A stretch of 64,000 bases of DNA from Leisingera sp. ANG-M1 (GTDB taxonomy: Bacteria; Pseudomonadota; Alphaproteobacteria; Rhodobacterales; Rhodobacteraceae), in assembly GCF_000813745.1 (NCBI RefSeq), contig NZ_JWLC01000021.1, forward strand, positions 62,001-126,000, given 5' to 3'. Shown here one piece after another: positions 26,345 to 61,541 of the stretch. Made by a program: the position numbers and the translations under genes. Each line of letters begins with the position of its first letter. Position 1 is the stretch's first letter. Below the pieces are notes generated by a model. The model was not told where the DNA came from and ran no database searches. It saw nothing but the letters and a program-made list of their open reading frames with translations.

Positions 26345-26347
26345 TCC

Positions 26348-27679: not shown

Positions 27680-27732
27680 TGCTAGAAACAAGTAGGTCTC
27701 GTGGAGCTCCGGCTTTGCGGGGCCTTCTTTTT
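27680..27732 (+). ncRNA. Counter-transcribed antisense RNA (incompatibility RNA) of repABC
   Basis: In the repB-repC gap, on the strand opposite to repABC, a candidate promoter TTGCGG-N17-TAACTT (27646-27674) is followed by about 25 bases and a terminator: GCTCCG-GCTTTG-CGGGGC (27706-27723, one G-U pair) with CTTCTTTTT. Position, strand, small size and terminator match the antisense RNA that limits RepC translation in repABC plasmids. The 5' end is estimated. Confidence 0.65.
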
Positions 27733-27768
27733 AGTCTGCTCTGTGCCTCCTTAAGTTATTGTTTTCAT

Positions 27769-29972: not shown

Positions 29973-30185
29973 CTGCTCGCTGCCCGTATGTAATTCCGTT
30001 TTTCTGCCTGGCGGCGTGTTCACGGAAATTGGCGTTTACCGCCTCTTTTTCGTGACTATTGGCGAAACAGGCGGATTCGTGCAAGTGTTTTCTATAGTTG
30101 GCCGCGTTTCGCGGCTGGCTTGCACGGCGCGCGGGGCCGGTCTTTGATTCAGAAGGAAACCCCAATTTAGAGCCTGTTTTCGAGC
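29973..30185 (-). promoter_or_regulatory. repABC upstream region
   Basis: This 213-base gap between repA and a LysR gene must hold the repABC promoter. A short dyad GCCGCG-TTT-CGCGGC (30101-30115) could be a RepA/RepB site. No convincing -35/-10 pair or second parS was seen. Confidence 0.4.
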
Positions 30186-47061: not shown

Positions 47062-47589
47062 TCAGCCAGCAGCCTTCAGCCCGTCGGCACAGCGCTGCTG
47101 GACATCGCGCACGATCACATTGACCAGTGCGCGGGAGACCTGCAGCTCTTCTGCGATGTCCTTTTGCGGGACACCGTCCAGCCGGTGGCGCAGGAACACG
47201 TCGCGGTTCCGCGGCGGGCTACCGGCCAGGCTCTGGACAACCGCGTGCAGCGCCTGTTTGCCTTCCAGGCTTGCCTGCCCGCACAGCGGCGTCACGCCGG
47301 CTGCTGCCAGCTGGCCTTCGTCCTCGAAATCCGTGGCGATCTCGCGCCGCGATTTGCGCAAATAGTCGATGGCCGCATTGCGCACCATCCGTGCCACATA
47401 AGGCCGGGCCCGGTCCGGCAGGCTGCCGGGCTTGAAAGACAGGCATTTCAGGGCCGTGTTCTGGATCACGTCTTCGGCAGCGTCAAGCGAGCCTACCAGT
47501 TTCAGGGCGGCGCACAGGTGCAGCCTGCGGTGGGTGACAAGTTCTTCAATCAAAGCTTCGCAGACGCGCGGGCGCGGGTGATCTGTCAT
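47062..47589 (-). CDS. ECF sigma factor (FecI/PvdS-like)
   Basis: A 175-residue ECF sigma factor. Region 2 is visible as LVTHRRLHLCAALKLVGSLDAAEDVIQNTALKCL and RPYVARMVRNAAIDYLRKSRRE (about residues 17-83). Region 4 appears as LAGSPPRNRDVFLRHRLDGVPQKDIAEELQVSRALVNVIVRDV (about residues 121-163), its recognition helix being KDIAEELQVSRALVNVIV. Its features, including the R-N-x-A-I-D-Y-L-R motif, fit the iron-siderophore ECF group. No FecR-type anti-sigma gene is adjacent, which resembles PvdS more than FecI. Two promoters in the neighbouring biosynthesis cluster have PvdS-type boxes, so it probably activates the locus under iron starvation. Confidence 0.88.
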   Translation of the reverse strand: MTDHPRPRVCEALIEELVTHRRLHLCAALKLVGSLDAAEDVIQNTALKCLSFKPGSLPDRARPYVARMVRNAAIDYLRKSRREIATDFEDEGQLAAAGVTPLCGQASLEGKQALHAVVQSLAGSPPRNRDVFLRHRLDGVPQKDIAEELQVSRALVNVIVRDVQQRCADGLKAAG

Positions 47590-47601
47590 GGCAATCCCAT
47601 C

Positions 47602-47623
47602 GGCATTTGTCCGGGCAAATGCC
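47602..47623. promoter_or_regulatory. Inverted repeat GGCATTTG-N6-CAAATGCC upstream of the sigma gene
   Basis: Perfect 8-base arms lie 13 bases before the ECF sigma start. It could be an operator or a leader hairpin that controls the sigma gene. No recognised Irr, RirA or Fur box was seen in the 47590-47789 gap. Confidence 0.45.
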
Positions 47624-47757
47624 CGGGAAGGTGATGTTTTTGGAGAAAACTGCCTTTGGGCCTGCAGGCCCTGGGTCGCGCAGCCGTTATCTCCCAGGTG
47701 GATTGCGAGGTCAATCTTTGCGTGTGAGATTGGCAGAGAAATGCCGTAAGCGGGTGT

Positions 47758-47779
47758 GCGGCCCGCTGCTGCGGGCCGC
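47758..47779 (-). terminator. Hairpin after the amine N-hydroxylase gene
   Basis: GCGGCCCGC-TGCT-GCGGGCCGC, a perfect 9-bp stem, lies 11 bases after the hydroxylase stop. It lacks a U-run, so termination may be partial and leave some read-through to the sigma gene. Confidence 0.5.
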
Positions 47780-47789
47780 TGCAGGCGGT

Positions 47790-49094
47790 TTATTCCGCGG
47801 CGGCGAGCTGTGCGGGCTGCGGTGTCAGGAGCGCTTCGGCAATCTCATCCACGCGCACCGCCAGGACCGACAGCAGGGTGTCGCTCAGCCCGTGGGTTTC
47901 TTCGCAGTAGCCCTGCAGGAAGATGCGGGGGCGGAAGCTTCCGCAGGTCCGCATCCGGTAATTCCGGTCCGGGCTTTCGAAATGCACATGCGGCTCCAGC
48001 CCGGCCAGAAGGGTTTCCCCCAGACGGCGGCGGTAGCCGGTTGCCAGAATGACCAGGTCATAGGCGCTGCTGCGGGTTTCGCCGCCCTGGGCGGGCTGCA
48101 GGGTCAGCAGTGTCTGCTGACCGCTGGCTTCTGCCGCGGTGACGCAGGTGCTGCGCAGCAGCCCGTAGGATGAGCTGCCGGCCACTTCCTGCTCGTAGAA
48201 CAGTCCGTAGACCTGATCGATCAGATCGCCGTCCACTACGGCGTAGTTGGTGTTGGAATACTCCGCCATCAGGGCCCGGCGCTGGTCTGCGGGCTGCTGG
48301 TAGACATGGGAGGTGAAGCTGGCGTCGAAAATCTCGTTCACGAAAGGGCTGTCGTCCGACGGTTTCAGCGCGTGGCTGCGGAAGATGAAATCCACCTGGG
48401 GCCGGGCCGGGTCATTGGCCAGGTCCATGAAAATCTCGGCGCCGCTCTGGCCTGAGCCGATGACTGCCACCTTCAGCGGTCTGTCCGCTGCTGCCAGCCT
48501 GGGTTTGACGCTGCTGAGGTAGCTGGAGCTGTGGACCACGCCGGGGTGGCCCTGCAGCGCAGCAAAGATGTCCGGAATCGCGGGTTTGCCGCCGATGGCC
48601 AGCACCAGATCCCGGGTCAGGTAGCGGGATTGCTGGCCGCTGCCGTCCTCAGCAGTGACCGCCAGCACCTCGCCGCTGCCGCCGGGGTCCTGAACGGGTT
48701 CGGCGCCAATCACCCGCTGGCCATAGCGGCAGGCATCCTCGAGCTGCGCGGCAGCCCAGACGAAGTAGCTGTTGAACTCCTGCCGGCTGGGAAAGAAGCT
48801 CTTGCGGTTGACGAAACGCTCCAGACGGCCCTGGGCGTGCAGGTAGCTGAGGAAGGAGTAGGGGCTGGCGGGATTGCGCAGGGTCACAAGGTCCTTGATG
48901 AAGGAAACCTGCATGTCCGACCCCTCAAGCAGCATGTCCGGGTGCCAGGCGAAGCGGGGTTTGGCCTCTAGAAAAAGGGCGTCCAGTTTTGGCGCGCCGG
49001 CCTGCGCGCGCTCTTGCAGGGCGATGGCCAGGGCCAGGTTCGAGGGGCCGAAGCCCACGCCGATCATGTCGTGGATGTGGTGCGGTTCGCTCAT
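47790..49094 (-). CDS. L-ornithine/L-lysine N-hydroxylase for siderophore synthesis
   Basis: A 434-residue flavin N-monooxygenase of the IucD/PvdA/SidA family. The FAD motif is MIGVGFGPSNLALAIALQE (about residues 10-28). LEAKPRFAWHPDMLLEGSDMQVSFIKDLVTLRNPASPYSFLSYL is the family hallmark, and the NADPH motif VAVIGSGQSGAEIFMDL lies at about residue 200. NTNYAVVDGDLIDQVY and VILATGYRRRLG complete the pattern. It hydroxylates the side-chain amine of ornithine or lysine, the first step to a hydroxamate. ATG 49094 overlaps the acyltransferase stop as ATGA; the frame is open further upstream but antisense-like. Choice between ornithine and lysine is not possible by eye. Confidence 0.93.
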   Translation of the reverse strand: MSEPHHIHDMIGVGFGPSNLALAIALQERAQAGAPKLDALFLEAKPRFAWHPDMLLEGSDMQVSFIKDLVTLRNPASPYSFLSYLHAQGRLERFVNRKSFFPSRQEFNSYFVWAAAQLEDACRYGQRVIGAEPVQDPGGSGEVLAVTAEDGSGQQSRYLTRDLVLAIGGKPAIPDIFAALQGHPGVVHSSSYLSSVKPRLAAADRPLKVAVIGSGQSGAEIFMDLANDPARPQVDFIFRSHALKPSDDSPFVNEIFDASFTSHVYQQPADQRRALMAEYSNTNYAVVDGDLIDQVYGLFYEQEVAGSSSYGLLRSTCVTAAEASGQQTLLTLQPAQGGETRSSAYDLVILATGYRRRLGETLLAGLEPHVHFESPDRNYRMRTCGSFRPRIFLQGYCEETHGLSDTLLSVLAVRVDEIAEALLTPQPAQLAAAE

Positions 49095-50164
49095 CGGGTT
49101 TCTCCGGGTTTCAATTGGGCAAAGGGGGACAGCTGCAGCGGGCGGCCGGGATCTGCAGGGCTGGGGCGGGACCAGAGGCGGGCCTGGAAGAAATGCGCCC
49201 GCTCCAGCCGCACCAGCGTTGCGCGCTTGTGGGCAAAGTCGAACTCCTTGACCGCGGCAAAGCCGGAACGGGTCAGGTTGCGCAGCTGCTGGGTATGGCT
49301 GGCGGCCGGTTCTCCGACCAGCGCCTGGGTGCGGGGCTCGGCCAGGAACATGTAATGCATCAGCGAGGGCAGCCAGGCGGTGATGAAATCGGCGCCGCGG
49401 GCCTCGGGGTCCCCCACCAGCACATGCCAGCCGCGGTCCCAGTCTCCGGCCGGGTAATGGGCGCCGATGCGGTTTTCCCGAGCCCAATAGAGTTCGAAGT
49501 AGCAGAAGGGGCGGCCGTCAAGGCAGCCAAGGACCGGCATCATATGCGGATCGGCCTGCATCCGGGCGAGGTAGTCCCGGTGGTATTCCAGGGTGCCGGA
49601 TTCCTCGAAGAAGGCGGCGACGCGCTCGTCGTTCATCCAGGCGTGGAACAGCTCCAGGTCGGCGGCAGGGTCCAGCGTGCGCAGCGAGAAGCACTGCTGC
49701 AGCCAGGGGATGCGGCGGCGGTAGAGGAGGCCTGACGGTTTGGCTGGACGCAGCGGGTGGCTGCCATGCGGGCCCGCCACCGGCACTTGCGGGTAGCTGC
49801 GGGGCGGCTGCACCAGCCAGAGGTCCGGAATTTGCCAGAGCATCTCCGGGAAAACGCCAAGCCAGCCGCCGTTCAGCAGGCAGGCAGCGCCAATGGACAG
49901 GAGCTCCTGCTCCAGAGAGGCGAAGTCCTCGCGCTTCAGCAGGACCAGAACTTCTTCTGCCGCGTGGCTGGTCAGGGCCTCGCAGGCGGCCAGCAGGGCG
50001 GCCAGGCTGAGCGGCCCGGCAGGTGCAGCGAGCTGCTGTTTGCCGCCGCCGTGGTTCGTAACGGCGATCTCTTGCGCGGTGCCATGGCTGTAAACCGTGA
50101 CACCGCCGGGGCAGGGCCGGGCCCAATGGGGCGGGCTGTGATCTGAGGTGTAATCCAATGACAC
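49091..50164 (-). CDS. Siderophore hydroxylamine acyltransferase (IucB/MbtK/RhbD-like)
   Basis: A 357-residue GNAT-fold protein. The C-terminal AlcB-type domain is diagnostic: LFHAWMNDERVAAFFEESGT (about residues 172-191), CYFELYWARENRIGAHY, DWDRGWHVLVGDPEARGADF and HKRATLVRLERAHFFQARLW near residue 315. The N-terminal 160 residues resemble the non-catalytic part of larger members. It transfers an acyl group from acyl-CoA to the hydroxylated side-chain amine, giving the hydroxamate iron ligand. It is translationally coupled to the hydroxylase gene. The start codon is preceded, 55-78 bases upstream, by an iron-starvation-type promoter box. Confidence 0.9.
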   Translation of the reverse strand: MSLDYTSDHSPPHWARPCPGGVTVYSHGTAQEIAVTNHGGGKQQLAAPAGPLSLAALLAACEALTSHAAEEVLVLLKREDFASLEQELLSIGAACLLNGGWLGVFPEMLWQIPDLWLVQPPRSYPQVPVAGPHGSHPLRPAKPSGLLYRRRIPWLQQCFSLRTLDPAADLELFHAWMNDERVAAFFEESGTLEYHRDYLARMQADPHMMPVLGCLDGRPFCYFELYWARENRIGAHYPAGDWDRGWHVLVGDPEARGADFITAWLPSLMHYMFLAEPRTQALVGEPAASHTQQLRNLTRSGFAAVKEFDFAHKRATLVRLERAHFFQARLWSRPSPADPGRPLQLSPFAQLKPGETR

Positions 50165-50218
50165 GCAGGGTCCTCCGTTTGCTGGGCGGCGCGGATGTGC
50201 GCCGGGACTGCTTGGAGA

Positions 50219-50242
50219 ACGCTGGAGGGCGGTGGAAATTTA
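50219..50242 (-). promoter_or_regulatory. PvdS-type iron-starvation box TAAAT-N16-CGT
   Basis: On the minus strand TAAAT (50242-50238), 16 bases and CGT (50221-50219) lie upstream of the acyltransferase/hydroxylase operon. Twelve bases in the -35 part (TTGTAAATTTCC) recur with one change at 53800-53823, with the same distance to CGT. The consensus is recalled from pseudomonad PvdS promoters. Confidence 0.7.
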
Positions 50243-50359
50243 CAAAAAAGATCAGGTGCTCTGCATTTTGCGGATTTGTTCGCAAGCGACTGAATGCAAA
50301 CCAGAAAACCCGGCGCCTGGAGACAGGGCCGGGAGCGGTTTTTACTGGGAAATCAGGTG

Positions 50360-51232
50360 TTAGCTGAGGGCAAATACCTTCTGGATGGCGCGGTTGACTG
50401 CCACGGGCAGCACCGACATGTGGTTTTCTCCGGCATAGGTTTCGTAGTCTGCTGCAACCCCGGGCAGCTGGTTCAATGCGTCAGCCATGTCCTGTGCTGC
50501 GGCGATGGTCCGGGTCTTTTCCTTCTCAGTCAGCCGTTCGGCGGCATCGGCGGCCCCCTCCTGGAACGGAGCCAGGCGCGCGCCTTCCCATTCGCCAGCA
50601 GAGAGATGCACATAGGGGCGGTGCGGGCCGGGATCAAAGCGCGCCTGATGCTGCAGCAGGAAGCTGTCTTCCCAGGTGATCGCGGGGCTGGCAGCGATCC
50701 AGTGGCTGAAGGCACCTGGCCGGGTGAACAGCAGCCACAGCGCAAACAAGCCGCCAAAGGAATGGCCGAACAATCCGCGGTGCGCGGGATTGAGCGGCGC
50801 AAGGGTCTCTGCCTGCGGCAGGACCTGTTCCAGCAGGAACCGCGCCATCTCTGCCGCGCCGCCGGTGCGGACCGGTTCGCCGCCATCGTAAAACGGCGGA
50901 TAGGTCTGACCCGGAGGCGGGCCGAGGTCCCAGCTGCGCCGGAAGGGATCGTAGGCGCCGTCTGTGGGGTAGCCGACGGCTATCAGCACGCCCCAGCCCA
51001 CATTGGCGCCCGAGGGGTAGCAGGCCTGCGCCCGCATCGCGTCGATGGCGGTGCCGATCACTGCATTGCCGTCGGTCATGAACAGGGCGGGCCAGCCTTC
51101 GGCAGGAGGCTCGCCCGGGGGCGTCCAGATGAAGACACGGCGGACAGCACCGGTTTCGCTGTCGGTGACATCGTGCCAGCGGGCTCCGGTCCAGGTCTCG
51201 CCGGTGGCGGCGGGGGGCGGCAGCTGCGTCAT
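50360..51232 (-). CDS. Siderophore esterase-like alpha/beta hydrolase (Fes/IroE family)
   Basis: A 290-residue hydrolase of the enterochelin-esterase/putative-esterase family. The nucleophile elbow is GLFGHSFGGLFALWLLF (serine at about residue 158) and the histidine is in YAGENHMSVLP near the end. PALFMTDGNAVIGTAIDAM and LIAVGYPTDG are also typical. No signal peptide is seen, so it is probably cytoplasmic. In siderophore loci these enzymes open ester or amide bonds of the imported ferric complex to release iron. It overlaps the preceding PLP-enzyme gene by four bases, and the operon MATE-PLP enzyme-esterase ends here. Confidence 0.85.
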   Translation of the reverse strand: MTQLPPPAATGETWTGARWHDVTDSETGAVRRVFIWTPPGEPPAEGWPALFMTDGNAVIGTAIDAMRAQACYPSGANVGWGVLIAVGYPTDGAYDPFRRSWDLGPPPGQTYPPFYDGGEPVRTGGAAEMARFLLEQVLPQAETLAPLNPAHRGLFGHSFGGLFALWLLFTRPGAFSHWIAASPAITWEDSFLLQHQARFDPGPHRPYVHLSAGEWEGARLAPFQEGAADAAERLTEKEKTRTIAAAQDMADALNQLPGVAADYETYAGENHMSVLPVAVNRAIQKVFALS

Positions 51233-52419
51233 TGGCGGGCCTCCCCGATGGCTTGCAGCACATCCGCCACCAGGTCATCGGCGTTTTCCAGGCCTGCGGC
51301 GAGGCGCACCGATCCGGCCGGTGTGCCGAAGCGCTGGAACACATTGGCCGGGCCGGAAAGGCCAAGGGCGGCCTGGGCCGGGATCACCAGGCTTTCCGGG
51401 CCGCCCCAGCTGACGCCGATTTTCACCGCTTTCAGCGCGTTGGTGAAACGGGGAATATCGACGCTGCTGTCCAGATCGAAGGCAAACAGCCCGCCATAGC
51501 CGGACAGGCAGGCGTTGCCCGGGTTGGCTTCGAATGCGGGGTGGCGGACACGGGTCACGGCGGGGTGGGCCGAAAGCGCCCGCCCCAGTGCCAGCCCGTT
51601 CTGCATGTGGCGGGCCATTCGAAGATGCAGGGTGCGCATGCCGCGCAGCACCAGCCAGGCGTCGAATGGAGAGAGCTTGCCGCCGAGGAAGTGATAAGCC
51701 TCGTGGTCGATACGGGCAAGCAGCGCCTTGGGGCCCGCAACCAGGCCTGCCAGCGTGTCGGAATGTCCTGCGAGGTATTTGGACGCGGCATGAACCACCA
51801 GGTCGATGCCGAATTCTGCCGGACGCTGATACAGCGGCGTGGCCCAGCTGTTGTCGATCACCGAGATCACTCCCAGCCGGCGCGCCTCGGCCCCGATGGC
51901 GCGCAAGTCCTGGGTGGTAAAGCTCCAGGATGTTGGACTTTCCAAATAGACCAGGGTGGCGCCGGGCAGGGCGTCCAGAACGGCCTGGGTATCAGTGCCG
52001 TCCACATACTGAGTGGTGACGCCGAACTTTTTCAGCAGGCATTCGAACAGGCGGAAGGCGTCGGAATAGAGGTTCTCGACCGCGACAACGCGGTCGCCGG
52101 ATTGCACAAAAGGGATCACGGCGGCAGCAATGGCCGCCATGCCGGAGGCAAAGCCGCGGGCTGCCTCCACGCCCTCCATCCGGGCGATGAGGCTTTCCAG
52201 CTCCGCCACCGTGGGGTTGTTGCCGCGGCTGTAGATATAGCGGCTGGACTTGCCTGCAAAGACGGCGGCCAGGTCCTCGTAGCGGTCAAACAGGAAAGAC
52301 GAGGTCTGGAACACCGGCACTGAACTGGCGCCATGCGGCATAGGATCATGCGGGGCGATGAGGTCGGGGGTGAGCCGGTCGGAGGCGGCCAGTGTGCCGC
52401 GGGGCGTGTGATCGTTCAT
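51229..52419 (-). CDS. Cys/Met-metabolism PLP-dependent enzyme (cystathionine gamma-synthase family)
   Basis: A 396-residue gamma-family PLP enzyme. YIYSRGNNPTVAELESLIARMEGVEAARGFASGMAAI (about residues 62-98) holds the cofactor-phosphate region, SVIDNSWATPLYQRP the cofactor-binding aspartate, and HAASKYLAGHSDTLAGLV the Schiff-base lysine (about residue 209). GSVRLAAGLENADDLVADVL near the end is the usual carboxylate-binding arginine segment. Normal roles are cystathionine synthesis/lysis or methionine gamma-lyase. Here it lies between exporter and esterase genes of a siderophore locus with four-base overlaps on both sides. It may make an unusual amino-acid building block for the NRPS, a proposal from context only. 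Confidence 0.88.
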   Translation of the reverse strand: MNDHTPRGTLAASDRLTPDLIAPHDPMPHGASSVPVFQTSSFLFDRYEDLAAVFAGKSSRYIYSRGNNPTVAELESLIARMEGVEAARGFASGMAAIAAAVIPFVQSGDRVVAVENLYSDAFRLFECLLKKFGVTTQYVDGTDTQAVLDALPGATLVYLESPTSWSFTTQDLRAIGAEARRLGVISVIDNSWATPLYQRPAEFGIDLVVHAASKYLAGHSDTLAGLVAGPKALLARIDHEAYHFLGGKLSPFDAWLVLRGMRTLHLRMARHMQNGLALGRALSAHPAVTRVRHPAFEANPGNACLSGYGGLFAFDLDSSVDIPRFTNALKAVKIGVSWGGPESLVIPAQAALGLSGPANVFQRFGTPAGSVRLAAGLENADDLVADVLQAIGEARQ

Positions 52420-53756
52420 ACGGGAAGACCTTTCAGGGCGGTGTGCGGCAGGCGCCGCAGGATCAGGGCGGCGGCAAAGCCGGTGAGCAGGGCAGCGAGC
52501 GACAGGGCGGGGGCGAGCCCGGCAAAGCCCCAGAAGCTGGCAGCGGTGAACAGGAGGGGCAGAAACAGCCAGCCGAGCGGTGCCAGGCCGAGAAGGGCGG
52601 CATCCCGGGCGCGGGCGGTGGCTTGCAGGCTGACTTGGGCCGCGTGGCGCAAAGCCGTGGCGGGCAGCGACAAGGCCAGCGCTGCCAGTGCCGGGACGGC
52701 GAGGGACTGAACCGCGGGATCAGCGGTGAAAAGGGCGCTGATCTGTGGGGCCGCTTGCAGGCCTGCCAGCAGGAACAGGCTGGCAGCGGCGGCGGCAAGG
52801 GTGGCTGTGGCGAATGCAGCGCGGGCCAGGCGGGCAGTATTGCCTGCGCCCGCGGCATGGGCCAGCACCGCCTGGGCGCCGAGGCAGAATCCCTCGACCG
52901 GCAGCGTGGCGAGCACCCAGAGCCGGAGCGCGATGCCCATGGCGGCCTGGCCGACGGTGCCCTCGTGCTCTCCGGCCAGGCGGTAGAGCAGCAGGAAGGC
53001 GAGGCTGGCCAGCAGCACCGAGGCTGCCTCGGGCAGGCCGATGCGCAGAACCGGCCAGAGGCGGGCAAGGGCGCTGCGCGATAAACGCGGCCGCAACTGC
53101 AGCGGGCTGCGGGCGGCGGTGAAATACCAGCCATAGAGGGCCAGGGTGGCGAGCTGAGCCAGAACGGTGGCCAGCGCGGCGCCGCGCACGCCAAGGCCTG
53201 CGGTGAAAATCAGCAGCGGGTCCAGCGCCATGTTGAGCGAGAAGCAGAGGATCAGGCTGAACAGGCTGAAACGGGCGTGGCCGCTGCCGATGGCGGTGAA
53301 ATCGCACAGGATTTGCACCATCCCCAACCCGGCCGAGAGGGTAAGGATGCTGAGGTACTGCAAGGCAGGTTCGCGCACCGCTCCGGTGGCGCCAAGCATA
53401 TCCAGCAGCGGCAGCCGGGCCAGCCAAAGCGCGGCTGCGGACAGGGCGGCCAGCAGCAGGCACAGTGCCATGGCAGCGGAGGCGAGGCGGGCGGCTTCCT
53501 GCCTGCGTCCCGCACCCAGGGCGCGCCCGGCTGCTGCTGCGGTGCCGATTCCCAGCCCCACGCCGATTGCGGCGGTGACGCCGGTAAGGGGCAGGGCCAG
53601 GCTGACGGCGGCCAGCGCCTCCGGCCCCAGCTGGCCGACGAAGTAGCTGTCCACGCCCTGGTGGGCGGCATTGAGCGAAAGGCCGCCTGCGGTGGGAAGG
53701 CCTGCGCGCAGCAGCGTCCGCAGGAGGTCCGGGCTGGCAAGGTTCAAGGCGGTCAT
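52416..53756 (-). CDS. MATE-family efflux transporter, probable siderophore exporter
   Basis: A 446-residue membrane protein with about twelve hydrophobic segments. The MATE halves are recognisable: GLPTAGGLSLNAAHQGVDSYFVGQLGPEALAAVSLALPLTG (about residues 19-59) and the second-half LPEAASVLLASLAFLLLYRLAG (about residue 240). ATG 53756 is chosen because it starts the conserved TM region. It is the first gene of a minus-strand operon (MATE, PLP enzyme, esterase) divergent from mbtH-NRPS, with an iron-starvation-type box 44-67 bases upstream. Export of the newly made siderophore is the natural role, though not proved. Confidence 0.88.
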   Translation of the reverse strand: MTALNLASPDLLRTLLRAGLPTAGGLSLNAAHQGVDSYFVGQLGPEALAAVSLALPLTGVTAAIGVGLGIGTAAAAGRALGAGRRQEAARLASAAMALCLLLAALSAAALWLARLPLLDMLGATGAVREPALQYLSILTLSAGLGMVQILCDFTAIGSGHARFSLFSLILCFSLNMALDPLLIFTAGLGVRGAALATVLAQLATLALYGWYFTAARSPLQLRPRLSRSALARLWPVLRIGLPEAASVLLASLAFLLLYRLAGEHEGTVGQAAMGIALRLWVLATLPVEGFCLGAQAVLAHAAGAGNTARLARAAFATATLAAAAASLFLLAGLQAAPQISALFTADPAVQSLAVPALAALALSLPATALRHAAQVSLQATARARDAALLGLAPLGWLFLPLLFTAASFWGFAGLAPALSLAALLTGFAAALILRRLPHTALKGLPV

Positions 53757-53799
53757 GGTCTTGAGGCTTCCGTCTGATGAAGGTTCGTCCTGACCTTTG

Positions 53800-53823
53800 A
53801 CGCAGGCGGGGCCGGGAAATTCA
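53800..53823 (-). promoter_or_regulatory. PvdS-type iron-starvation box TGAAT-N16-CGT
   Basis: On the minus strand TGAAT (53823-53819), 16 bases and CGT (53802-53800) precede the MATE operon. Aligned without gaps with the box at 50219-50242, the -35 part TTGTRAATTTCC and the GCGT at -10 coincide. Confidence 0.65.
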
Positions 53824-53855
53824 CAAGCCGGGGGCAAGTTTTCTGCCCGGAGGGG

Positions 53856-53880
53856 GGAACTGCGGGCCGGGTGCTGCGTC
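53856..53880 (+). promoter_or_regulatory. Candidate ECF promoter GGAAC-N16-CGTC for mbtH-NRPS
   Basis: GGAAC (53856-53860) and CGTC (53877-53880) are 16 bases apart on the plus strand, just before the MbtH gene. The -10 agrees with the two minus-strand boxes but the -35 does not match TAAAT, so assignment to the same sigma factor is uncertain. Confidence 0.4.
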
Positions 53881-53896: not shown

Positions 53897-54112
53897 ATGA
53901 ATGGAGACCTGAAGATGACCCAACCCGGACCCGATCAATGGATCTGCGTCAGAAACAGTGAAGGCCGCTGGTCTGTCTGGCCTGCAGACCTGCCGGTTCC
54001 TGCGGGATGGCAGGCCGAAAGCGCGCCTGCGGACCGCGGCGCCTGCCTGGCGGAGATTGAGGCGCGCTGGAGCGACCCGCGTCCCGAGGCGCTGCAGGAG
54101 GCGATGGCATGA
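53897..54112 (+). CDS. MbtH-like NRPS accessory protein
   Basis: A 71-residue protein (or 65 from the second ATG at 53915, which has GGAGA upstream). The family fingerprint is complete: N-S-E-G-R-W-S-V-W-P (residues about 20-29), PAGW, and GACLAEIEARWSDPRP. MbtH proteins bind the adenylation domain and are needed for its folding or activity. The stop overlaps the NRPS start as ATGA, so the two are made together. Confidence 0.93.
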   Translation: MNGDLKMTQPGPDQWICVRNSEGRWSVWPADLPVPAGWQAESAPADRGACLAEIEARWSDPRPEALQEAMA

Positions 54113-57100
54113 GCGGTACGCAGGTGCTTGAAGACGCAGGGGTGGAGCTGACACCGGGTGAAAAACAGGTTTGCGCCCATGACCAGGTAGGGCAGCTGGC
54201 GCCCTATGGGGTGCAGGTGCTGCTGCTTAGGGCGGACGCACGCTGGAAGACCGCAGAGGTCCGGCAGGCAGCGGACGCCGTCCTGAATTTGCATCCGGTG
54301 TTTCGTGCGCGTCTGCACCGGCTGGCGGGCGGGGAAATGTGCCGCTCGGAACAGGCGGAGAACCGGATAGGGTTGGCAGAACGTCCAGCAAAGGGGTTGG
54401 AGGCTGCTCTGGCAGGGATGCGGTTTGATCTGGACGGCGGTGCGGGTGCCTTTGCCTGCGTCGCAGCTGATGCCGAGGGCCATCTGTTCGGTGTGGCTTT
54501 GCATCCGGCCTTTGGCGATGCCGGGGTGCTGAACGCTGTGGCCCTGGGCTTTGCCCATGCGCTGACCGGAGAGGCTGGGGCGGCTGCGCCAACTTCAGCG
54601 GCGCCGGCGGCCGAAGCGGTCCGGGATCAGCTGCCTGGCTGGCGGGAAATGCTGGAGGACGCGGCCTGTGCGGTTGCCCGTTTGCCGCACCGCCATGGCG
54701 GCAGTGAAGACGTTGCGCGGGGCTGCGCGGAACAAGGGCTGAAGCCGGCGCTGGCAGACACCCTGTGCCGTGAAGGCGCCGGGGTGGAAGCCCGTTTCGC
54801 TGCTGCGCTTGGCATTGTGCTGTCGCGCTGCAGCGGGCAGCGGGATCTGCGTTTTGCAACCGGTTCTGTCCGGGCGCAGGCAGTGCGGCGCAGTGAAGAC
54901 ATCCTGCCGCTGCGGCTGCAGATCGACCCAGGAAGCAGTGCAGCGGCTGTGCTGGAGCAAGTGCAAGCGGAATTGGCGAAGGGCAGGGCGCGGACAGTGC
55001 CTTCGGAGTTCCTGGTGCAGGACATGCTGCGCCGCGAGGGGGCGGACCGGCATCCCTTGGGGGCCGTCACTCTGCATGTGCGCAGGGATGCGCCGCTGCC
55101 GGACGGGCTGGGTTTCTGCGCCGTGCCTGAGCCTGCGGCGCAGGGGGAGCTGCTGCTGCTGGTGCGTCTGTGCAGCGATGGCAGGGTGATCCTGCGGGCC
55201 AGCTATGCGCGGGACCTGTTCGAGCCAGCCTTGATCGGGCGCTTTCTGGTGCATTTGGAGAGGGTGCTGGAGGCCGGGCTGGCAGATCCGGAGCAGGCGG
55301 CAGGGCGGATTGCGCTGCTGAGCCGCGAGGAACTGGGCACCCTGTCGGCGCCATATGAGGACGGCGCGGTCAACGATCCGCGCGCGGTGCATGAAATCAT
55401 ATCGGACCATGCCCGCCAAACGCCGGATAAGACGGCGCTGATCAGCGGCGGGCAGGAATGGAGCCACGGCACCCTGAACCGCCGGGCCAACAGGCTGGCG
55501 CACCGGCTGCGGACGTTGGGTGTCGGCGCTGAAGTGCCGGTGGCCGTTATGGTCGAGCGCGGCAACGAGGCGGTGATGGCAATACTGGCGGCGCTGAAGG
55601 CAGGCGGTGCCTTTGTCCCGATAGACCCGGACCATCCCGAAAGCCGCAACCACCACATTCTGAGCGACGCAGGCGTGCAGGCGGTGATCACCCGCCGCCG
55701 CCATCTGGGCAAACTGCCCGAAGGGCTCAAGGCCCGGATCCTGTGCCTGGACGATGATCCCGGGGCGGGCCAGCCGGAGACGGACCCGGATGTCCCCATC
55801 CGCCGGGACCAGATGGCCTATATCATGTATACCTCTGGCTCTACCGGCAAGCCGAAGGGGGTTGCGGTGGAGCACGGGCCGCTCAGCGATCATCTGCAGG
55901 ACACCGCGCGTGTTTATGAGATGAGCAGCGAAAGCCGGGAACTGCCGTTCCTGCCGTTCTCCTCGGATGGCGGGCACGAGCGCTGGATGAACCCTCTGAT
56001 GATGGGCGGTTCGGCGGTGATCCCAGACGGGCCGCTGTGGACGCCGGAGCAGAGCTTTGCGGCGATGCGCAAATACGGCTGCAACAATGCCTCGATCCCG
56101 ACGTCCTATTTGCAGCAGCTGGCGGAATGGGCGTCAGAGACCGGCGAGGGGCCGGAGATGCGGCTCTATTCCTTCGGCGGCGAAGGTCTGGCGCAGGCGA
56201 CTTTTGACCTGCTGTCGCGGGAGCTGCGGGCGCCTCTGCTGATCAACGGCTACGGGCCGACCGAGACCATCATGACGCCGATGGTCTGGAAGGTTCGGGC
56301 AGGTACCAGGTTCGAGGGCGCCTATGCGCCTTTGGGCCGCGCCGTGGGCAACCGCCGCGCCTATGTGCTGGATGCGCAGCTGATGCCGTGCCCCGTCGGG
56401 GTGGTGGGCGAGATCCATCTGGGCGGCGAGGGCGTTGCGCGCGGCTATGTGAACCGGCCCGGCACCACCGCGGACCGGTTTATTCCCGATCCTTTTGCGC
56501 CGGAACTGGACGGGCGCGAGGGCGCGCGGATGTACCGGTCCGGTGATCTTGGGCGCTGGCGCGAGGACGGCACGATTGAATTCCTGGGCCGGGTGGATCA
56601 TCAGGTAAAGCTCAATGGCTACCGGATCGAGCCGGGGGAGATCGAGGCGGCGCTCCTGCAGCAGCCGGGCGTGTCCGAAGCGCTGGTTCTGCTGCGCGAG
56701 GATGGCGGCGAGAAGCGGCTGGTCGGCTATGCGGTGGCACCGCAGAAGGTGCAGGAAGAGCAGCTGATGCGGGCGCTGGAGGCGCAGCTGCCCCGGCATA
56801 TGGTGCCCTCGGCCATCGTTGTGCTGGAGCGGATGCCGACCAATGCCAATGCCAAGGTAGACCGGGCGGCACTGCCGCTGCCGGGGGTGCGGCGGCGGGC
56901 CGGACAAGGCGAGGCCCCGGCGGGAGAGGCTGAGGCCGCGGTGCTGGCAGTTTGGCGGGAAGAGACCGGAAACCCGGATATGGGAGTGACCGATGACTTC
57001 TTTGACATGGGCGGCCGGTCGCTGACCGCGCTGAAGGTGCTGGCCCGCATGCGCAAAGCCTGGCCGGGCACGGCGCTGACCATTGCGGATCTGTTTGACG

Positions 57101-57978
57101 CGCCGACGGTCCGGGCCTTGACGCGGCGGCTTGAGGCCGGGGATGCCACCGGGCGGCAGGCGATTGCGCTGCGCGGTACCGGCTCAAGGCCGATGCTCTA
57201 TTGCTTCCCGGGGCTGCTGGTCTCGACCCGCGAGTACCTGCGGCTGACCGCCTATCTGGGAGAGGATCAGCCGGTGACCGGCTTCCTGTGCCATTCGCTC
57301 AATGAGGAGAAGCACCTGAACGTGGCCGTGCAGGATGTGGTGGCGCCTTACGTCGATCATATCCGCCGGCAAAGCGCGGGGCGGCCCTGCGCCTTCCTGG
57401 GCTGGAGCTGGGGCGGTCTTCTGGCCTGGGAGGCGGCGCGGCAGCTGCACGGTGAAGTGGATCTGCGGATGATCGGCATGGTGGATGTCTGCGATCTGGG
57501 CCGCGACTTTGCCCCTGGCGCAGTGCCGCGGTTTGATCCTGGCGAGCGGGAGACGCTGGAAGCGGAGCTGCGGGCCTGGCTGGGCAAAACCCGGATGCGG
57601 GCACAGTGGGATGCGCTGATCGGGGCGATGGATGCGCTGTGTTATGAACAGTTCCTGCGCTTCATCGGAAATGAGGCGGAGCCGCTGCCCTTTGACGGGC
57701 CCGAGGTTTCCAGCCGCGAGCACACGTTCTGGGTGCTGATCGACAACGCGCTGGTGTTCCGGCAGTACCAGCTGGCGCAGCTGGATGTGCCGGTGGCATC
57801 TTTCAGCGCGGGTGACACGCTGAGCCGGGGGCTGAGCCTGGTGGACTGGCGGCAGGTGTCGCCGCGGGCTGCACCGGCAGAAGTGGTGCCGGGCACCAAC
57901 CATCTGCATATCATTGGCGACCAGCTGTTCCATGGCCGTTTCAAGGCGGCGCTGGAGCGGGCTTTCGAAGGCGTGTAA
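54109..57978 (+). CDS. Single-module nonribosomal peptide synthetase, C*-A-T-TE
   Basis: A 1289-residue synthetase. Residues 1 to about 415 are condensation-like, but the HHxxxDG position reads LHPAFGDAG (H132), so the catalytic motif is altered. The adenylation domain shows YTSGSTGKPKG at 574-584, SSDGGHERW, NGYGPTE, YRSGDLGRW and GYRIEPGEIE, with NANAKVDR at A10. The carrier domain has GGRSL with the phosphopantetheine serine S971. The C-terminal thioesterase has GWSWGG (S1100) and H1265. One module with a thioesterase suggests iterative use on an N-hydroxy-N-acyl amino acid, giving an oligomer or macrocycle; alternatively it releases a single product. It is coupled to MbtH and followed by a strong terminator. 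Confidence 0.92.
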   Translation: MSGTQVLEDAGVELTPGEKQVCAHDQVGQLAPYGVQVLLLRADARWKTAEVRQAADAVLNLHPVFRARLHRLAGGEMCRSEQAENRIGLAERPAKGLEAALAGMRFDLDGGAGAFACVAADAEGHLFGVALHPAFGDAGVLNAVALGFAHALTGEAGAAAPTSAAPAAEAVRDQLPGWREMLEDAACAVARLPHRHGGSEDVARGCAEQGLKPALADTLCREGAGVEARFAAALGIVLSRCSGQRDLRFATGSVRAQAVRRSEDILPLRLQIDPGSSAAAVLEQVQAELAKGRARTVPSEFLVQDMLRREGADRHPLGAVTLHVRRDAPLPDGLGFCAVPEPAAQGELLLLVRLCSDGRVILRASYARDLFEPALIGRFLVHLERVLEAGLADPEQAAGRIALLSREELGTLSAPYEDGAVNDPRAVHEIISDHARQTPDKTALISGGQEWSHGTLNRRANRLAHRLRTLGVGAEVPVAVMVERGNEAVMAILAALKAGGAFVPIDPDHPESRNHHILSDAGVQAVITRRRHLGKLPEGLKARILCLDDDPGAGQPETDPDVPIRRDQMAYIMYTSGSTGKPKGVAVEHGPLSDHLQDTARVYEMSSESRELPFLPFSSDGGHERWMNPLMMGGSAVIPDGPLWTPEQSFAAMRKYGCNNASIPTSYLQQLAEWASETGEGPEMRLYSFGGEGLAQATFDLLSRELRAPLLINGYGPTETIMTPMVWKVRAGTRFEGAYAPLGRAVGNRRAYVLDAQLMPCPVGVVGEIHLGGEGVARGYVNRPGTTADRFIPDPFAPELDGREGARMYRSGDLGRWREDGTIEFLGRVDHQVKLNGYRIEPGEIEAALLQQPGVSEALVLLREDGGEKRLVGYAVAPQKVQEEQLMRALEAQLPRHMVPSAIVVLERMPTNANAKVDRAALPLPGVRRRAGQGEAPAGEAEAAVLAVWREETGNPDMGVTDDFFDMGGRSLTALKVLARMRKAWPGTALTIADLFDAPTVRALTRRLEAGDATGRQAIALRGTGSRPMLYCFPGLLVSTREYLRLTAYLGEDQPVTGFLCHSLNEEKHLNVAVQDVVAPYVDHIRRQSAGRPCAFLGWSWGGLLAWEAARQLHGEVDLRMIGMVDVCDLGRDFAPGAVPRFDPGERETLEAELRAWLGKTRMRAQWDALIGAMDALCYEQFLRFIGNEAEPLPFDGPEVSSREHTFWVLIDNALVFRQYQLAQLDVPVASFSAGDTLSRGLSLVDWRQVSPRAAPAEVVPGTNHLHIIGDQLFHGRFKAALERAFEGV

Positions 57979-58064: not shown

Positions 58065-60215
58065 TCAGAAGGATCTGCCGATGGTGAAGGACACGGTGCG
58101 GCCTTCGCCGCGGGAACAGCCGTAGCCGTCGTAGCAAACGCTGTCGTATTCCTTGTCGAACAGGTTGGAGACCCGCAGGTTCACCTCCATTTCCTGCCAT
58201 TCATAGCGCAGAGCCAGATCGGCGAGGGTATAGGAGGGAGTCACCCGTGCATTGCTTTGAGTGGCAAAGGCATCGTCATTGTAGCGCAGCCCGCCGCCGA
58301 TGCTGAGACCCGGCAGCAAGGCCGCGGCATCATAGTCCAGCCACAGCGACAGCTGGTGCGGCGGTGCCATGGCATTGTCGTTGCCAGTCAGGCCCTCAAC
58401 CAGCGACTTGGTGATTTCGCTGTCCAGGTAGGTGTAGCCGAACACGCCTTGCAGATTGTCCGTGATCCGGCCGCGGGCCTCCAGCTCAAGCCCGCGCGAG
58501 CGGATTTCGCCGGCTTGGGTAAAGCTGCTCCAGGTCGGGTCGTTGCGGTCGTAGTCCTTTACGTTGGTCTTGCGCAGATCGAAGATGGCGGCGCTGAGCA
58601 TGTAGCTGCCATGTTCCGGCAGGTAGCGCAGGCCGGCCTCCCACTGCTTGCTTTCGGAAGGATCCAGCGGCGCGCCGGCGATGGTTTTGCCGAAATTCTG
58701 GACGAAGCCTTCGGTATAGCTGACGTAAGGTGTCAGGCCGTTGGCCATTTCGTAGGTCAGGCCCAGCATGCCGGTGGTTGCGGCGTTCTTCTGAGACTGG
58801 GTCGTGGAAGTCAGCAGATTATCGATTTCATTTTCAAACCAGCTGCGGCGCAGGCCAGCAGTGACCGCCAGGCCGTTGCCGAATTTGTGGTGGTTCTGCA
58901 GGTAGATCCCTTTTTCGGTGTATTCTTCCCGGTTATGCGCCGACTGCGGCGGGTAGGCGACGTCGAAATCGAACACCGGATCGGCGAAGCTGACGGAATA
59001 GGCGCCGTAGGCCAGGTGCTGGCGGTATTCGGTCTTGCGGCGCTGATAGTCGGCGCCGACGATCAGGCTGTTGCCGCCGCGTTTCCATTCCAGGTAATTG
59101 TCGAGGCCCAGGTTATAGGCTTCTTCGGTGTTGGCCTGCGCGGTATAGCCCATGTCGCCGGTCGCAAAATCGGTCGAGGCCAGGTACAGGTGCCGGTAGT
59201 CGATCTTGTCGCGGGCATAGCGGGTCTTCTGGTTGAAGGTGAAACCGTCGCCGAAGCGGTGCGAGAGTTCCCACCCGATGGACCCGCTGTCGCTTTCATA
59301 GGAATTGAAGTCAGACTGCCGGGTGTAGAAGTCCGCAGGCAGGCTGCCAAGTGCCGCGTCATATTCCACGCCCGCTTGCGGGACCCACTGCAGCGGTGTG
59401 CGCTCGTCCTGCTGCAGATGCATCAGCACCGTCAGGCTGGTGTCATCGCTGGGCGCCCAGGTCAGGCTGCCCGCCACCAGGCTGCGGTCGTTATGGGAAT
59501 TGTCCAGCTCGGTTTCGCCGTCGCGCAGCAGCACCGTCAGCCGCCCGGCCAGCGTACCCTCGTCATTCAGTACCCTGGAGACGTCCACGCCGGCTTCGGC
59601 GGTGCCAAAGCTGCCATAGCCGGCATAGGCAGAGCCTTCGTTTTCAAACGTGGGGCGTTTGGTGACCAGGTTGACCAGGCCGCCGGCGTCGTTGGAGCCA
59701 TAGAGAACACCTGCCGGGCCGCGCAGCACCTCTACCCGGTCCAGCATGTAGGGGTCGATCTTGAAGCTGGCGAAATTATGCGCTTTGTTCGGCAACCCGT
59801 CGCGGTAGAGCGCGCTGGTGCCCATGTCGAAGCCGCGGATCGAGAACTGGTCGAACCGGTCGTCGGTGCCCCAGGTGGAAGGGTTGATGCCAGGGGTGAA
59901 CTTGATCGCGTCCTCGACCTGGGCGGGCTGGCGGCGTTCCAGCTCGGTGGAGGTCACGACCGAGATCGACTGCGGCACCTCGGCCAGTGGCACGCCGGAT
60001 TTGACGCCGGTCTCGGAAGCGGGCGCGAGATAGCCGTCGACGGCGCCTGCATATTGCAGCTTGTCGCGCACGATGATCGGCGCAAGCTCCAGCACGTCCT
60101 CTTCCTGAGCAGAAACGGGGTGGGCGGCGAGCGCAGAGGCGCCAAGCGCGGTGCCGCAGAGCAGCGCCCGCAAGGCGGGACGGCCGGTAGCGGCCGGGGC
60201 GGATTGGATTGTCAT
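58065..60215 (-). CDS. TonB-dependent siderophore receptor
   Basis: A 716-residue outer-membrane receptor. The Sec signal runs to about residue 37 (AAHPVSAQEED), a TonB-box-like DVLELAPIIV follows, and the plug domain includes VPQSISVVTSTELERRQPAQVEDAIKFTPGINPS and VEVLRGPAGVLYGSNDAGGLVNLVTKRP. The barrel ends in YDSVCYDGYGCSRGEGRTVSFTIGRSF with the terminal phenylalanine used for outer-membrane assembly. There is no N-terminal signalling extension, so it is not a FecA-type signal transducer, which agrees with the missing FecR. It takes up the ferric siderophore. ATG 60215 is used. The 258-base gap to the next gene upstream presumably has its promoter; no PvdS-type box was found there. Confidence 0.93.
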   Translation of the reverse strand: MTIQSAPAATGRPALRALLCGTALGASALAAHPVSAQEEDVLELAPIIVRDKLQYAGAVDGYLAPASETGVKSGVPLAEVPQSISVVTSTELERRQPAQVEDAIKFTPGINPSTWGTDDRFDQFSIRGFDMGTSALYRDGLPNKAHNFASFKIDPYMLDRVEVLRGPAGVLYGSNDAGGLVNLVTKRPTFENEGSAYAGYGSFGTAEAGVDVSRVLNDEGTLAGRLTVLLRDGETELDNSHNDRSLVAGSLTWAPSDDTSLTVLMHLQQDERTPLQWVPQAGVEYDAALGSLPADFYTRQSDFNSYESDSGSIGWELSHRFGDGFTFNQKTRYARDKIDYRHLYLASTDFATGDMGYTAQANTEEAYNLGLDNYLEWKRGGNSLIVGADYQRRKTEYRQHLAYGAYSVSFADPVFDFDVAYPPQSAHNREEYTEKGIYLQNHHKFGNGLAVTAGLRRSWFENEIDNLLTSTTQSQKNAATTGMLGLTYEMANGLTPYVSYTEGFVQNFGKTIAGAPLDPSESKQWEAGLRYLPEHGSYMLSAAIFDLRKTNVKDYDRNDPTWSSFTQAGEIRSRGLELEARGRITDNLQGVFGYTYLDSEITKSLVEGLTGNDNAMAPPHQLSLWLDYDAAALLPGLSIGGGLRYNDDAFATQSNARVTPSYTLADLALRYEWQEMEVNLRVSNLFDKEYDSVCYDGYGCSRGEGRTVSFTIGRSF

Positions 60216-60473
60216 CACTGTAGTCCCAGGTTTATCGGCCAGGCTGCACGGGTGGCAGGGAACTGGCCCTATTGGTTGGCAAATTGCGTGTTTCGCCTGG
60301 GACGTTCCTGGGTGGCGGCACCATACAATTAACAGGTGAAGAGTCAATGGCGGCGGAACCATAACCCTTGATTTGGAGAGCTTTTTCCCTGCTTCTCATG
60401 TGCTGTCAGGTCTGCAGGCAGAGAGAAGGAGCGCCCTGCAGAGCGGAGCCTCGCCGGGTGGCAGGACGATGGG

Positions 60474-61541
60474 CTACGGCAGGCTCCAATAGGCTGCGAT
60501 ATAGCGCTGGCCGGACGCCACCCCGGCGGCCCGGGCAGCATCGCGCAAGGGCTGGACCTCAGACTTTTCGCCGGCGAACCAGAGGAAGGCGCCGGGATGC
60601 TCTGGGAACTCCGCCCGGGCGCAGCCGCCAAGGCTGTCTCCGGCCTGCCGGTCCAGCCAGCGCAGGGAAATGCCGGGTGGTGCGGTGAGCGGATACCCGC
60701 AGGCGGCGGCGCCATCCGTGAGCAGCGTGGCGCGGCCGCGAGTACCGGGCTGCAGGGATTCGAGGATGCGGGCCGCGGCCGGAATGGCGGTCTCATCAGC
60801 GTAAAGCAGGATTTCTTCCGCGTCCGGAATGCCGCCGCCGCCGGGGCCTGCGATGGCCAGCTGATGGCCTGCTGCAGCGTTCTGCGCCCAGGCAGAGGCA
60901 CGGCCGCCGGCATGCAGGAACAGGTCGAATTCCAGCAACCCGCTGTGGGCGCAGACGCGACGGGCGGTATAGACCGGCCGGTGCAATGCCTTGGCGCCTT
61001 TGGGCCAAAGGGTCCGGCCGCTGGTATCGATCTTCGGGTACTCCGGATCGGTGCAGCCTGCGGGCGGCAGCAGCAGGCGGAAGTGGATGGCATCATCGCC
61101 AAAGCCGGACAGGTCCTGTGCTTGCAAGCGGATGCGCAGAAAATTGCGGCCCAGCGGAGCGACAGAGAGCACGGTGGTGAATTGCACGTCCGGAGGCAAA
61201 GTGCCTGCAGCACCGTCATCCGGCCAGCGGAGTGAAGCCGCCGTGCCAGGCTGCAGGTGTTCGAGGTGCTCGGCAAAACCCTCTTTCAGCATGTGGAGCC
61301 GGTCCGGTAGTGCAGCCGATACAAGGATCGCGCTGCCTTCCCCCTCCGCGGTGAAGCAGTAGTGGCCGAAGCCGGGGATCTCGATTGTGAGACTGGTGTC
61401 AGCATCGTGGAGGATTGGCAATTCATGCTCTTGCGCCATGGCGCGCAGAGCCGGCCGGGCGGCGGCAAAGGGCAAGGCGGGCAGTGCGGCCCCGGCCCGC
61501 AGGGGGAAGCTGGGATGGCTGTTCATCGGTGCGGGTCTCAT
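60474..61541 (-). CDS. Siderophore-interacting protein (ViuB-like ferric reductase) with extra N-terminal domain
   Basis: A 355-residue protein. The FAD domain is seen in VAPLGRNFLRIRLQAQDLSGFGDDAIHFRLLLPP and RPVYTARRV (the R-x-Y-T-x-R flavin motif, about residue 195). SIP-family segments are LFLHAGGRASAWAQNAAAG, ILLYADETAIPAAARILESL and ASGQRYIAAYWSLP at the end. The first 110 residues form an additional domain of the DUF2218 kind, as I recall it for some members. It reduces and releases iron from the imported siderophore in the cytoplasm. ATG 61541 overlaps the fecE-like stop (ATGA), so it is coupled to the importer genes; ATG 61526 is an alternative. Confidence 0.85.
   Translation of the reverse strand: MRPAPMNSHPSFPLRAGAALPALPFAAARPALRAMAQEHELPILHDADTSLTIEIPGFGHYCFTAEGEGSAILVSAALPDRLHMLKEGFAEHLEHLQPGTAASLRWPDDGAAGTLPPDVQFTTVLSVAPLGRNFLRIRLQAQDLSGFGDDAIHFRLLLPPAGCTDPEYPKIDTSGRTLWPKGAKALHRPVYTARRVCAHSGLLEFDLFLHAGGRASAWAQNAAAGHQLAIAGPGGGGIPDAEEILLYADETAIPAAARILESLQPGTRGRATLLTDGAAACGYPLTAPPGISLRWLDRQAGDSLGGCARAEFPEHPGAFLWFAGEKSEVQPLRDAARAAGVASGQRYIAAYWSLP

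Follow-up and report, generated by a model that had tools for sequence, protein, structure and literature searches.

Introduction

The extracytoplasmic function (ECF) sigma factor RpoI of Rhizobium leguminosarum, encoded by pRL120319 on plasmid pRL12, is reported as the sigma factor for the adjacent vbs genes (PMC1557990), and the Burkholderia factors OrbS and MbaS, formerly classed as ECF09, are recorded in PMC8908255 as having no anti-sigma factor and as lying near a nonribosomal peptide synthetase (NRPS) siderophore cluster with mbtH. The corresponding receptor OrbA is described in PMC9023288 as having no signalling domain. PvdS of Pseudomonas is described as being held by the anti-sigma factor FpvR together with a signalling receptor (PMC8908255; PMC9023288). 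Here we analysed a window of 64,000 nt (the whole stretch of DNA under study) from Leisingera sp. ANG-M1, whose 5.37 Mb genome (99.82% complete) served for all genome-wide scans. We estimate at roughly 85% the probability that the window carries a vicibactin-like siderophore module under the control of a dedicated iron-starvation ECF sigma factor (gene at 47062 to 47589, minus strand) without an anti-sigma factor, in the manner of RpoI in Rhizobium and OrbS/MbaS in Burkholderia.

Among the matches listed in the open-access literature there was no report of such a sigma factor in roseobacters. NRPS clusters of Paracoccus are stated in PMC8273931 to resemble vicibactin in part, and a fecI-type sigma gene appears in a table for Rhodobacter sphaeroides (PMC4618611). 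The Leisingera siderophore of squid symbionts was also considered; going by PMC4337385, it appears to belong to a different cluster.

Results

The sigma gene encodes a protein of 175 aa with Pfam Sigma70_r2 and r4_2 domains, and by far its best NCBIfam model was PRK07037, the model for iron-starvation sigmas of the PvdS/OrbS type, at 109 bits and thus under the cut-off of 190. The same model gave 319.9 bits to Burkholderia OrbS, 245.6 to a PvdS-like sigma, 218.1 to an Azospirillum sigma near a FecR gene and 125.6 to the Rhizobium RpoI-type sigma; we identified OrbS from the cysteines that PMC9023288 lists for it (196, 199, 203 and 209), and "PvdS-like" is our label for a Pseudomonas sigma near NRPS genes (L086) that is not P. 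aeruginosa PvdS. The PvdS-like and RpoI sigmas have a region 4.2 closely resembling that of the window sigma (GVPQKDIAEELQVSRALVN). When 44 sigmas were placed in a tree, rooted at the midpoint and with L083 left out, 22 sigmas from Rhodobacterales siderophore clusters formed one group (support 98/93), apart from a separate supported group holding OrbS and the PvdS-like sigmas, and RpoI, which is 34% identical to the window sigma, adjoined the Rhodobacterales group without support (30/4).

A search of the genome for FecR (PF04773) gave no match but succeeded in four controls, E. coli among them; other anti-sigma families were not searched. The NCBIfam and Pfam scans of the locus proteins returned no anti-sigma factor, and the Pfam scan of the receptor returned plug and barrel only, with no signalling (STN) domain. 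The preliminary description of this DNA had stated that the locus has its own ECF sigma gene with no FecR partner and that the receptor lacks a signalling domain, and both statements hold. It had further called the circuit PvdS-type, a label that is not supported: the score lies under the cut-off, the clade is a different one, and no counterpart to FpvR and its signalling receptor was found here. PvdS proper, as a transferred pseudomonad system with cell-surface signalling through an unrecognised anti-sigma factor and the ferri-siderophore, would be in keeping with the geometry of the boxes described below, which is that of the published iron-starvation (IS) box TAAAT-N16-CGT (PMC2235872), and with the 37% identity between the window sigma and the PvdS-like sigma; against the findings on FecR, receptor, score and tree we regard it as very improbable. 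An iron-starvation ECF sigma without an anti-sigma factor, not PvdS proper, is the reading that comparison supports well.

The cysteines of the window sigma bear on a further alternative, namely that the sigma protein senses iron directly, as OrbS does, besides being controlled transcriptionally. C167 aligns with C196 of OrbS, and C103 lies in a TPLCG motif common to close relatives. We consider direct sensing unlikely: the window sigma has no equivalents of the distal OrbS cysteines C199, C203 and C209, and hence not the C-terminal Fe(II) sensor cluster of the OrbS type, and an equivalent of C196 was not seen in the tail of 15 cluster sigmas outside the Leisingera-type group (L176 being doubtful). 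According to PMC9023288, C196 moreover occurs in PvdS too.

Two candidate target promoters for the sigma factor were read on the minus strand. Box 1 (50219 to 50245; full read TTGTAAATTTCCACCGCCCTCCAGCGT) lies upstream of the acyltransferase and hydroxylase genes and has the form TTGTAAATTTCC-N11-GCGT, with TAAAT-N16-CGT at 50219 to 50242, and box 2 (53800 to 53826; full read TTGTGAATTTCCCGGCCCCGCCTGCGT) lies upstream of the operon for the MATE exporter, the pyridoxal phosphate (PLP) enzyme and the esterase and has the form TTGTGAATTTCC-N11-GCGTC, with TGAAT-N16-CGT at 53800 to 53823. The preliminary description had placed both motifs at exactly these positions before these operons and had aligned them without gaps over the -35 block and GCGT, and we confirmed this (common TTGTRAATTTCC, N11, then GCGT). 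Its scan pattern was off by one base, the gap being N11 and not N12, and as given it finds a single site with three mismatches. With the gap corrected, the genome-wide scan that it had proposed returned the exact core, written as TGTRAATTTC-N12-GCGT, twice, at boxes 1 and 2 only; the lone site with one mismatch (L044) lies upstream of a gene judged by eye not to be siderophore-related. Within the window the N11 pattern gave two matches at up to three mismatches, both exact, compared with a shuffle mean of 0.36, and two were reached by 4 of 100 shuffles. It might be held that both boxes are chance likenesses in AT-rich upstream DNA, there being only two sites in the window; the enrichment test has some circularity, its pattern having been derived from these sites themselves, and bare TRAAT-N16-CGT at up to one mismatch showed no enrichment in the window (19 matches vs a shuffle mean of 38). 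The comparison with relatives refutes it.

For this comparison we used 23 biosynthetic clusters, comprising the window, L170-L174, L176, L177, L077, L082, L083, L085, L087, L088, L199, L201, L202, L204, L205, L206 and the plasmid loci L228, L229 and L231, after removal of the duplicates L072, L076 and L084. By tblastn, the sigma factor, hydroxylase, acyltransferase, PLP enzyme, MbtH-like protein and NRPS were present in 23/23 clusters; MATE was not detected in L177 and L228, nor the esterase in L082. The majority of the clusters had been retrieved via the sigma itself, so its presence is partly due to selection; L199, L201, L202, L204, L205 and L206 were retrieved via the esterase instead. The cluster sigmas diverge down to ~35% identity despite the common descent of the clusters. 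The interval from mbtH to the MATE (or PLP) gene holds a pair of TGAAT-N16-CGTC sites that face away from each other, with 44 of 46 positions held over the 23 clusters: the MATE-side site was found in all 23 and the mbtH-side site in 21, which have both intact. This conservation, across several genera, leaves the chance explanation next to no probability. The two mbtH-side exceptions are L171 (TGAAC) and the window, where box 3 (53856 to 53880, plus strand; upstream of mbtH-NRPS), which was absent from the preliminary account, reads GGAAC-N16-CGTC; GGAAC stands where relatives have TGAAT, and N16-CGTC is retained. Box 3 may be either degenerate or rewired to another sigma factor.

The relaxed pattern TRAATTY-N14-CGTY gave 43 matches within the intergenic regions separating mbtH from MATE (or PLP), which total 4,381 bp over the 23 clusters, vs 14 in 512,145 bp outside them. 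Of these 14, 11 lie just upstream of the acyltransferase gene; box 1 thereby has a counterpart in 11/23 clusters, the window included. The pattern occurred upstream of the sigma gene in none of the 23 clusters. The proposal of a self-contained circuit is therefore not supported; the sigma gene has a sigma70-like promoter instead, and since it lacks a box, iron must enter through something else. As for the pseudomonad PvdS consensus claimed for the boxes, the geometry and the TAAAT of box 1 agree with it, while the TGAAT of box 2 and the -35 of the Rhodobacterales clade, mostly GTGAAT, do not. At the corresponding place, each of the Rhizobium loci examined (2/2) carries one TAAAT-N16-CGTC and one TAAAC-N16-CGTC site, oriented away from each other (the TAAAC sites were identified by eye). 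Pairs of TAAAT-N16-CGT with this orientation also occur in three loci of the Methylobacterium group (L073, L078, L079). The box pair thus looks old, with Rhodobacterales carrying mostly GTGAAT where others have TAAAT.

The sigma gene is rare, being matched at E 1e-12 in 5 of 394 genomes of a family-wide sample and in 5 of 21 within the genus, and the family-sample genomes with a match all carry the cluster. The esterase was carried by 15 of 390 genomes, and the same 15 carried the receptor. Eleven stretches were fetched via the esterase: in all six that contain an NRPS, a sigma gene adjoins the hydroxylase gene, and the five lacking an NRPS have no sigma gene within the stretch. Four of these five (L196, L198, L200 and L203), which hold esterase, receptor and transporter genes, gave no relaxed box match and are probably siderophore cheaters, judging from their gene content; the fifth (L197), with an esterase match only, gave one such match, far from the esterase. 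Viral contigs were searched for relatives and none was found.

Taken as a circuit, iron shortage would raise transcription of the sigma gene from its sigma70-like promoter, and the sigma factor would recruit RNA polymerase to three TRAAT-N16-CGT(C) promoters, those of MATE-PLP-esterase, acyltransferase-hydroxylase and mbtH-NRPS. We infer recognition of the boxes by the neighbouring sigma from their co-occurrence and from the likeness of region 4.2 to that of known iron-starvation sigmas. The receptor gene, and apparently the sigma gene itself, would stand outside the sigma regulon and have in common a different promoter and a leader element. The whole would amount to a feed-forward cascade with no closed loop, running from an iron input through the sigma factor to biosynthesis and export.

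Several points weigh against this reading. The 23 clusters are related by descent (close pairs L170/L171 and L077/L083), and counts over them are not independent events. In the genome, the relaxed pattern gave 19 matches vs 2 for a reversed control, and boxes 1 and 2 are the only ones of the 19 ahead of siderophore genes; each of the 17 further matches overlaps some open frame of 155 codons or more whose start precedes it, a criterion of little force where DNA is GC-rich. Despite the NRPS being indispensable, the box on the mbtH side has decayed in both the window and L171, and the absence of boxes from the uptake-only stretches is partly trivial because the genes that they would drive are absent as well. 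Read-through from the upstream operon, with some feedback onto the sigma gene, is possible. Directly after the hydroxylase stop codon there is a hairpin with z <= -3.0 in 10/23 clusters, practically none (z > -0.8) in 7/23, and the sigma gene is likely insulated from the upstream operon in some clusters. Finally, the genome has 10 other Sigma70_r2 matches, and the boxes might be read by another resident ECF sigma (e.g., a general stress ECF), the neighbouring sigma having other targets. The GGAAC-N16-CGTC of box 3 is close to what we take to be the general ECF promoter, GGAAC presumably resembling its -35. A general ECF sigma would, however, predict exact cores elsewhere in the genome, where only those of this locus were found, and the constant company of sigma gene and cluster speaks for the neighbouring sigma; we judge control by another ECF sigma to be distinctly unlikely, slightly more so than direct sensing by the sigma protein. 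Control by the neighbouring iron-starvation sigma is the reading retained in what follows.

The remaining genes of the locus fit a vicibactin-like module because the Rhizobium locus has a like gene set beside a related sigma. The minus strand encodes a putative L-ornithine/L-lysine-type N-hydroxylase with a VbsO-like role (47790 to 49091; Pfam Lys_Orn_oxgnase, E 9.8e-114; 30-31% identity to the Rhizobium locus), a VbsA-like GNAT hydroxamate acyltransferase (49091 to 50164; Pfam Acetyltransf_8; 54-56% identity over 224 residues), an esterase that probably acts on the siderophore (50360 to 51232; Pfam Esterase), a VbsL-like PLP enzyme of the Cys/Met family (51229 to 52419; Pfam Cys_Met_Meta_PP; 52-54% identity) and a MATE exporter (52416 to 53756; TIGR00797, 190 bits, cut-off 147). 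The plus strand encodes an MbtH-like protein of 65 aa (53915 to 54112), whose tblastn matches, present in every cluster, fall in L226 and L228 on genes that carry an MbtH-family annotation, and a one-module NRPS of condensation, adenylation, thiolation and thioesterase (C-A-T-TE) domains (54109 to 57978; Pfam condensation, AMP-binding, PP-binding and thioesterase; 50% identity to the Rhizobium locus). We take the VbsL-like enzyme to be an epimerase, and the other single Vbs functions are likewise assumed. The best curated model of the hydroxylase is histamine N-monooxygenase (TIGR04439, 198.6 bits vs a cut-off of 700), and for this reason the hydroxylated amine need not be ornithine. Uptake genes follow on the minus strand, namely the TonB-dependent siderophore receptor gene (58065 to 60215), a gene for a siderophore-interacting protein whose start is unsure (60474 to 61523; Pfam SIP and FAD_binding_9) and Fec-type ATP-binding cassette uptake genes for an ATPase and two permeases, which run past the window end (61538 to 64000; the ATPase from NCBIfam and Pfam, the permeases from open frames and from how similar plasmid DNA of Leisingera is annotated).

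Upstream of the sigma gene we read a predicted sigma70-like promoter (47686 to 47714, minus strand), with -35 TTGACC at 47709 to 47714 and -10 GATAAC at 47686 to 47691 separated by 17 bp, the same in L170 and L171, followed by a leader element, ACCCAGG...AAAGGCAGT (47649 to 47676, minus strand). A related element was found in 22/23 clusters by a loose expression (L174 in register by eye) and in 14/23 by a stricter one of the ACYCA...GGCAGA type; the L199 leader is doubtful, and eight leaders from Leisingera, Phaeobacter and Tritonibacter have, by eye, ACCNA...GGYAGT at constant spacing. Over the sigma leaders, spacing ranged from 15 to 22 bases by hand count. The receptor gene, which has no box, is preceded by TTGACT...TATGGT and the leader element ACCCAGG-N5-CCCAGGC (60286 to 60347, minus strand), and TTGAC...TATNNT followed by ACCCAGG-N4-5-CCCAGGC was present in 10 of 18 distinct receptor leaders under a strict pattern (20 entries, two repeats), with L172 a near match. 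The sigma promoter and leader region (47649 to 47722, minus strand) and the receptor region share their layout, with variable spacing, an observation that also covers L170-L174, L196-L206 and L228-L231. The best further matches of a sigma-leader profile were the receptor leaders of L170, L171 and the window, all weak (E 0.56, 0.6 and 4.1). ACCNAGG-N3-6-CCMAGGC had 9 genome matches vs 3 for the reversed control, and only the receptor copy precedes an iron gene.

With anchors placed by eye, at least two pairs between the insert ends were present in 29 of 36 leaders vs 20% of shuffled inserts, which is suggestive with relatedness uncontrolled. When right ends were exchanged among the sigma leaders, the observed value was reached in 2 of 5000 shuffles; for the receptor leaders, whose ends are invariant, it was reached in 5000 of 5000. 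Together with the variable spacing, such pairing may point to a small leader RNA at the 5' end and not to an operator of fixed spacing. Tentatively, and with more doubt than confidence, we propose that the iron input is an undescribed cis element that follows the sigma70-like promoter of both the sigma and the receptor genes and consists of ACYCA, a short, hairpin-like insert of variable length and ARGYAG or CAGGC. As part of this same tentative proposal, the leader RNA would gate sigma factor and receptor in a lineage in which Fur is reportedly not the iron master regulator.

A search of Rfam at the gathering threshold found no known RNA at the leaders in seven loci; the only match there was a cobalamin riboswitch near the cluster in L176 (14723 to 14936, minus strand). 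The Iron-Rhodo-box of IscR was rejected as an identity for the leader element, which is not palindromic, that box being given in PMC4618611 as a 19-bp palindrome. Duplex energies were used to ask whether the leader element pairs with the sequence ahead of the start codon. In four receptor leaders (L203 and the closely related trio of the window, L170 and L171), the own partner ranked 0 to 2 of 10 against foreign partners (P <=0.043 vs shuffles). Over all leaders the result was mixed, with means of -25.6 for own vs -23.5 for cross partners in 11 receptor leaders and of -20.6 vs -17.6 in 16 sigma leaders, of which several did not outperform shuffles, in a test weakened by head and tail overlap in short leaders and by shuffles that preserved base composition only. 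Such pairing is accordingly not claimed. Leisingera-type sigma leaders (L170, L172, L173, L174, L202 and the window at 47590 to 47640, minus strand) have a second hairpin ~30 bases before the start codon, whose stems (CCGGGC/GCCCGG, GTCGGGCA/TGCCCGAC and others) apparently covary, as judged by eye.

The window also holds a repABC module (26328 to 30115) with 82-85% identity to Leisingera plasmids, which makes it probable that the 234 kb contig is a plasmid. The contigs that carry the locus in L170, L171 and L173 measure 4.2 to 4.4 Mb and are presumably chromosomal. Paracoccus, Thioclava and Tritonibacter have related clusters on plasmids, and sigma and esterase matches were found on Pseudosulfitobacter plasmids. 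DNA homology to L170 and L171 extends from 47073, within the terminal part of the sigma gene, to beyond the window end; the left flank is not common to the compared stretches, except for one 742-base match of 71% elsewhere. From this distribution the module has evidently moved between replicons.

Discussion

The preliminary description had held that such a circuit in a roseobacter plasmid would be notable. What stands is a sigma circuit that lacks FecR, is restricted to a single siderophore locus and lies on a repABC contig; the PvdS label is dropped. Being alphaproteobacterial and plasmid-borne does not set it apart, given the precedent of R. leguminosarum, in which rpoI lies beside vbs with pRL120319 on pRL12 (PMC1557990). 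The kind of circuit is already known as an arrangement of Rhizobium, Burkholderia and Pseudomonas. What is new, as far as the open-access literature matches listed show, is a Rhodobacterales clade with a promoter consensus of its own, together with the third promoter and a leader element common to the sigma and receptor genes.

These comparisons would extend the iron-starvation sigma circuit without an anti-sigma factor from Rhizobium and Burkholderia to several Rhodobacterales genera. The predicted consensus, GTGAATTTY-N13-CGTC, is testable in marine strains and usable for finding clusters by sequence. The module occurs on plasmids and chromosomes and is accompanied by uptake-only versions resembling siderophore cheaters. 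The leader element as an iron switch, if true, would fill a gap in roseobacter iron sensing for siderophore production.

PvdS shares with the window system the IS-box geometry, sigma region 4.2 and siderophore NRPS targets, but works with FpvR and receptor signalling, and no such parts were found in the window system. PfrI of Herbaspirillum seropedicae is likewise comparable, as a PvdS-like sigma with a canonical IS box before mbtH and no adjoining anti-sigma gene in the account of PMC6037834, but it works with a transducer receptor bearing an STN domain. OrbS/MbaS of Burkholderia are alike in being iron-starvation sigmas without an anti-sigma factor, with an NRPS cluster that includes mbtH and a receptor without a signalling domain; OrbS differs in its C-terminal cysteine iron sensor, missing from the window sigma, and in its far higher PRK07037 score (319.9 vs 109).

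The two fetched Rhizobium plasmid loci (L226 and L227), which we infer from gene content to be vbs loci with an RpoI-type sigma, have the vicibactin-type gene set around the sigma gene (mbtH, NRPS, hydroxylase, acyltransferase, MATE and PLP). They are alike in their homologous MbtH, NRPS, acyltransferase, MATE and PLP proteins (39-56% identity), in having a hydroxylase and their own ECF sigma, and in the facing-away N16-CGTC pair, which lies between mbtH and the acyltransferase gene in Rhizobium (2/2 loci) and of which one member is decayed in the window. They differ in box sequence (TAAAT/TAAAC vs TGAAT here), in gene order, in the low identity of the hydroxylase (30-31%) and sigma factor (34%), and in giving no esterase match. 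Since the circuit would work without an anti-sigma factor, it resembles OrbS/MbaS or RpoI rather than PvdS.

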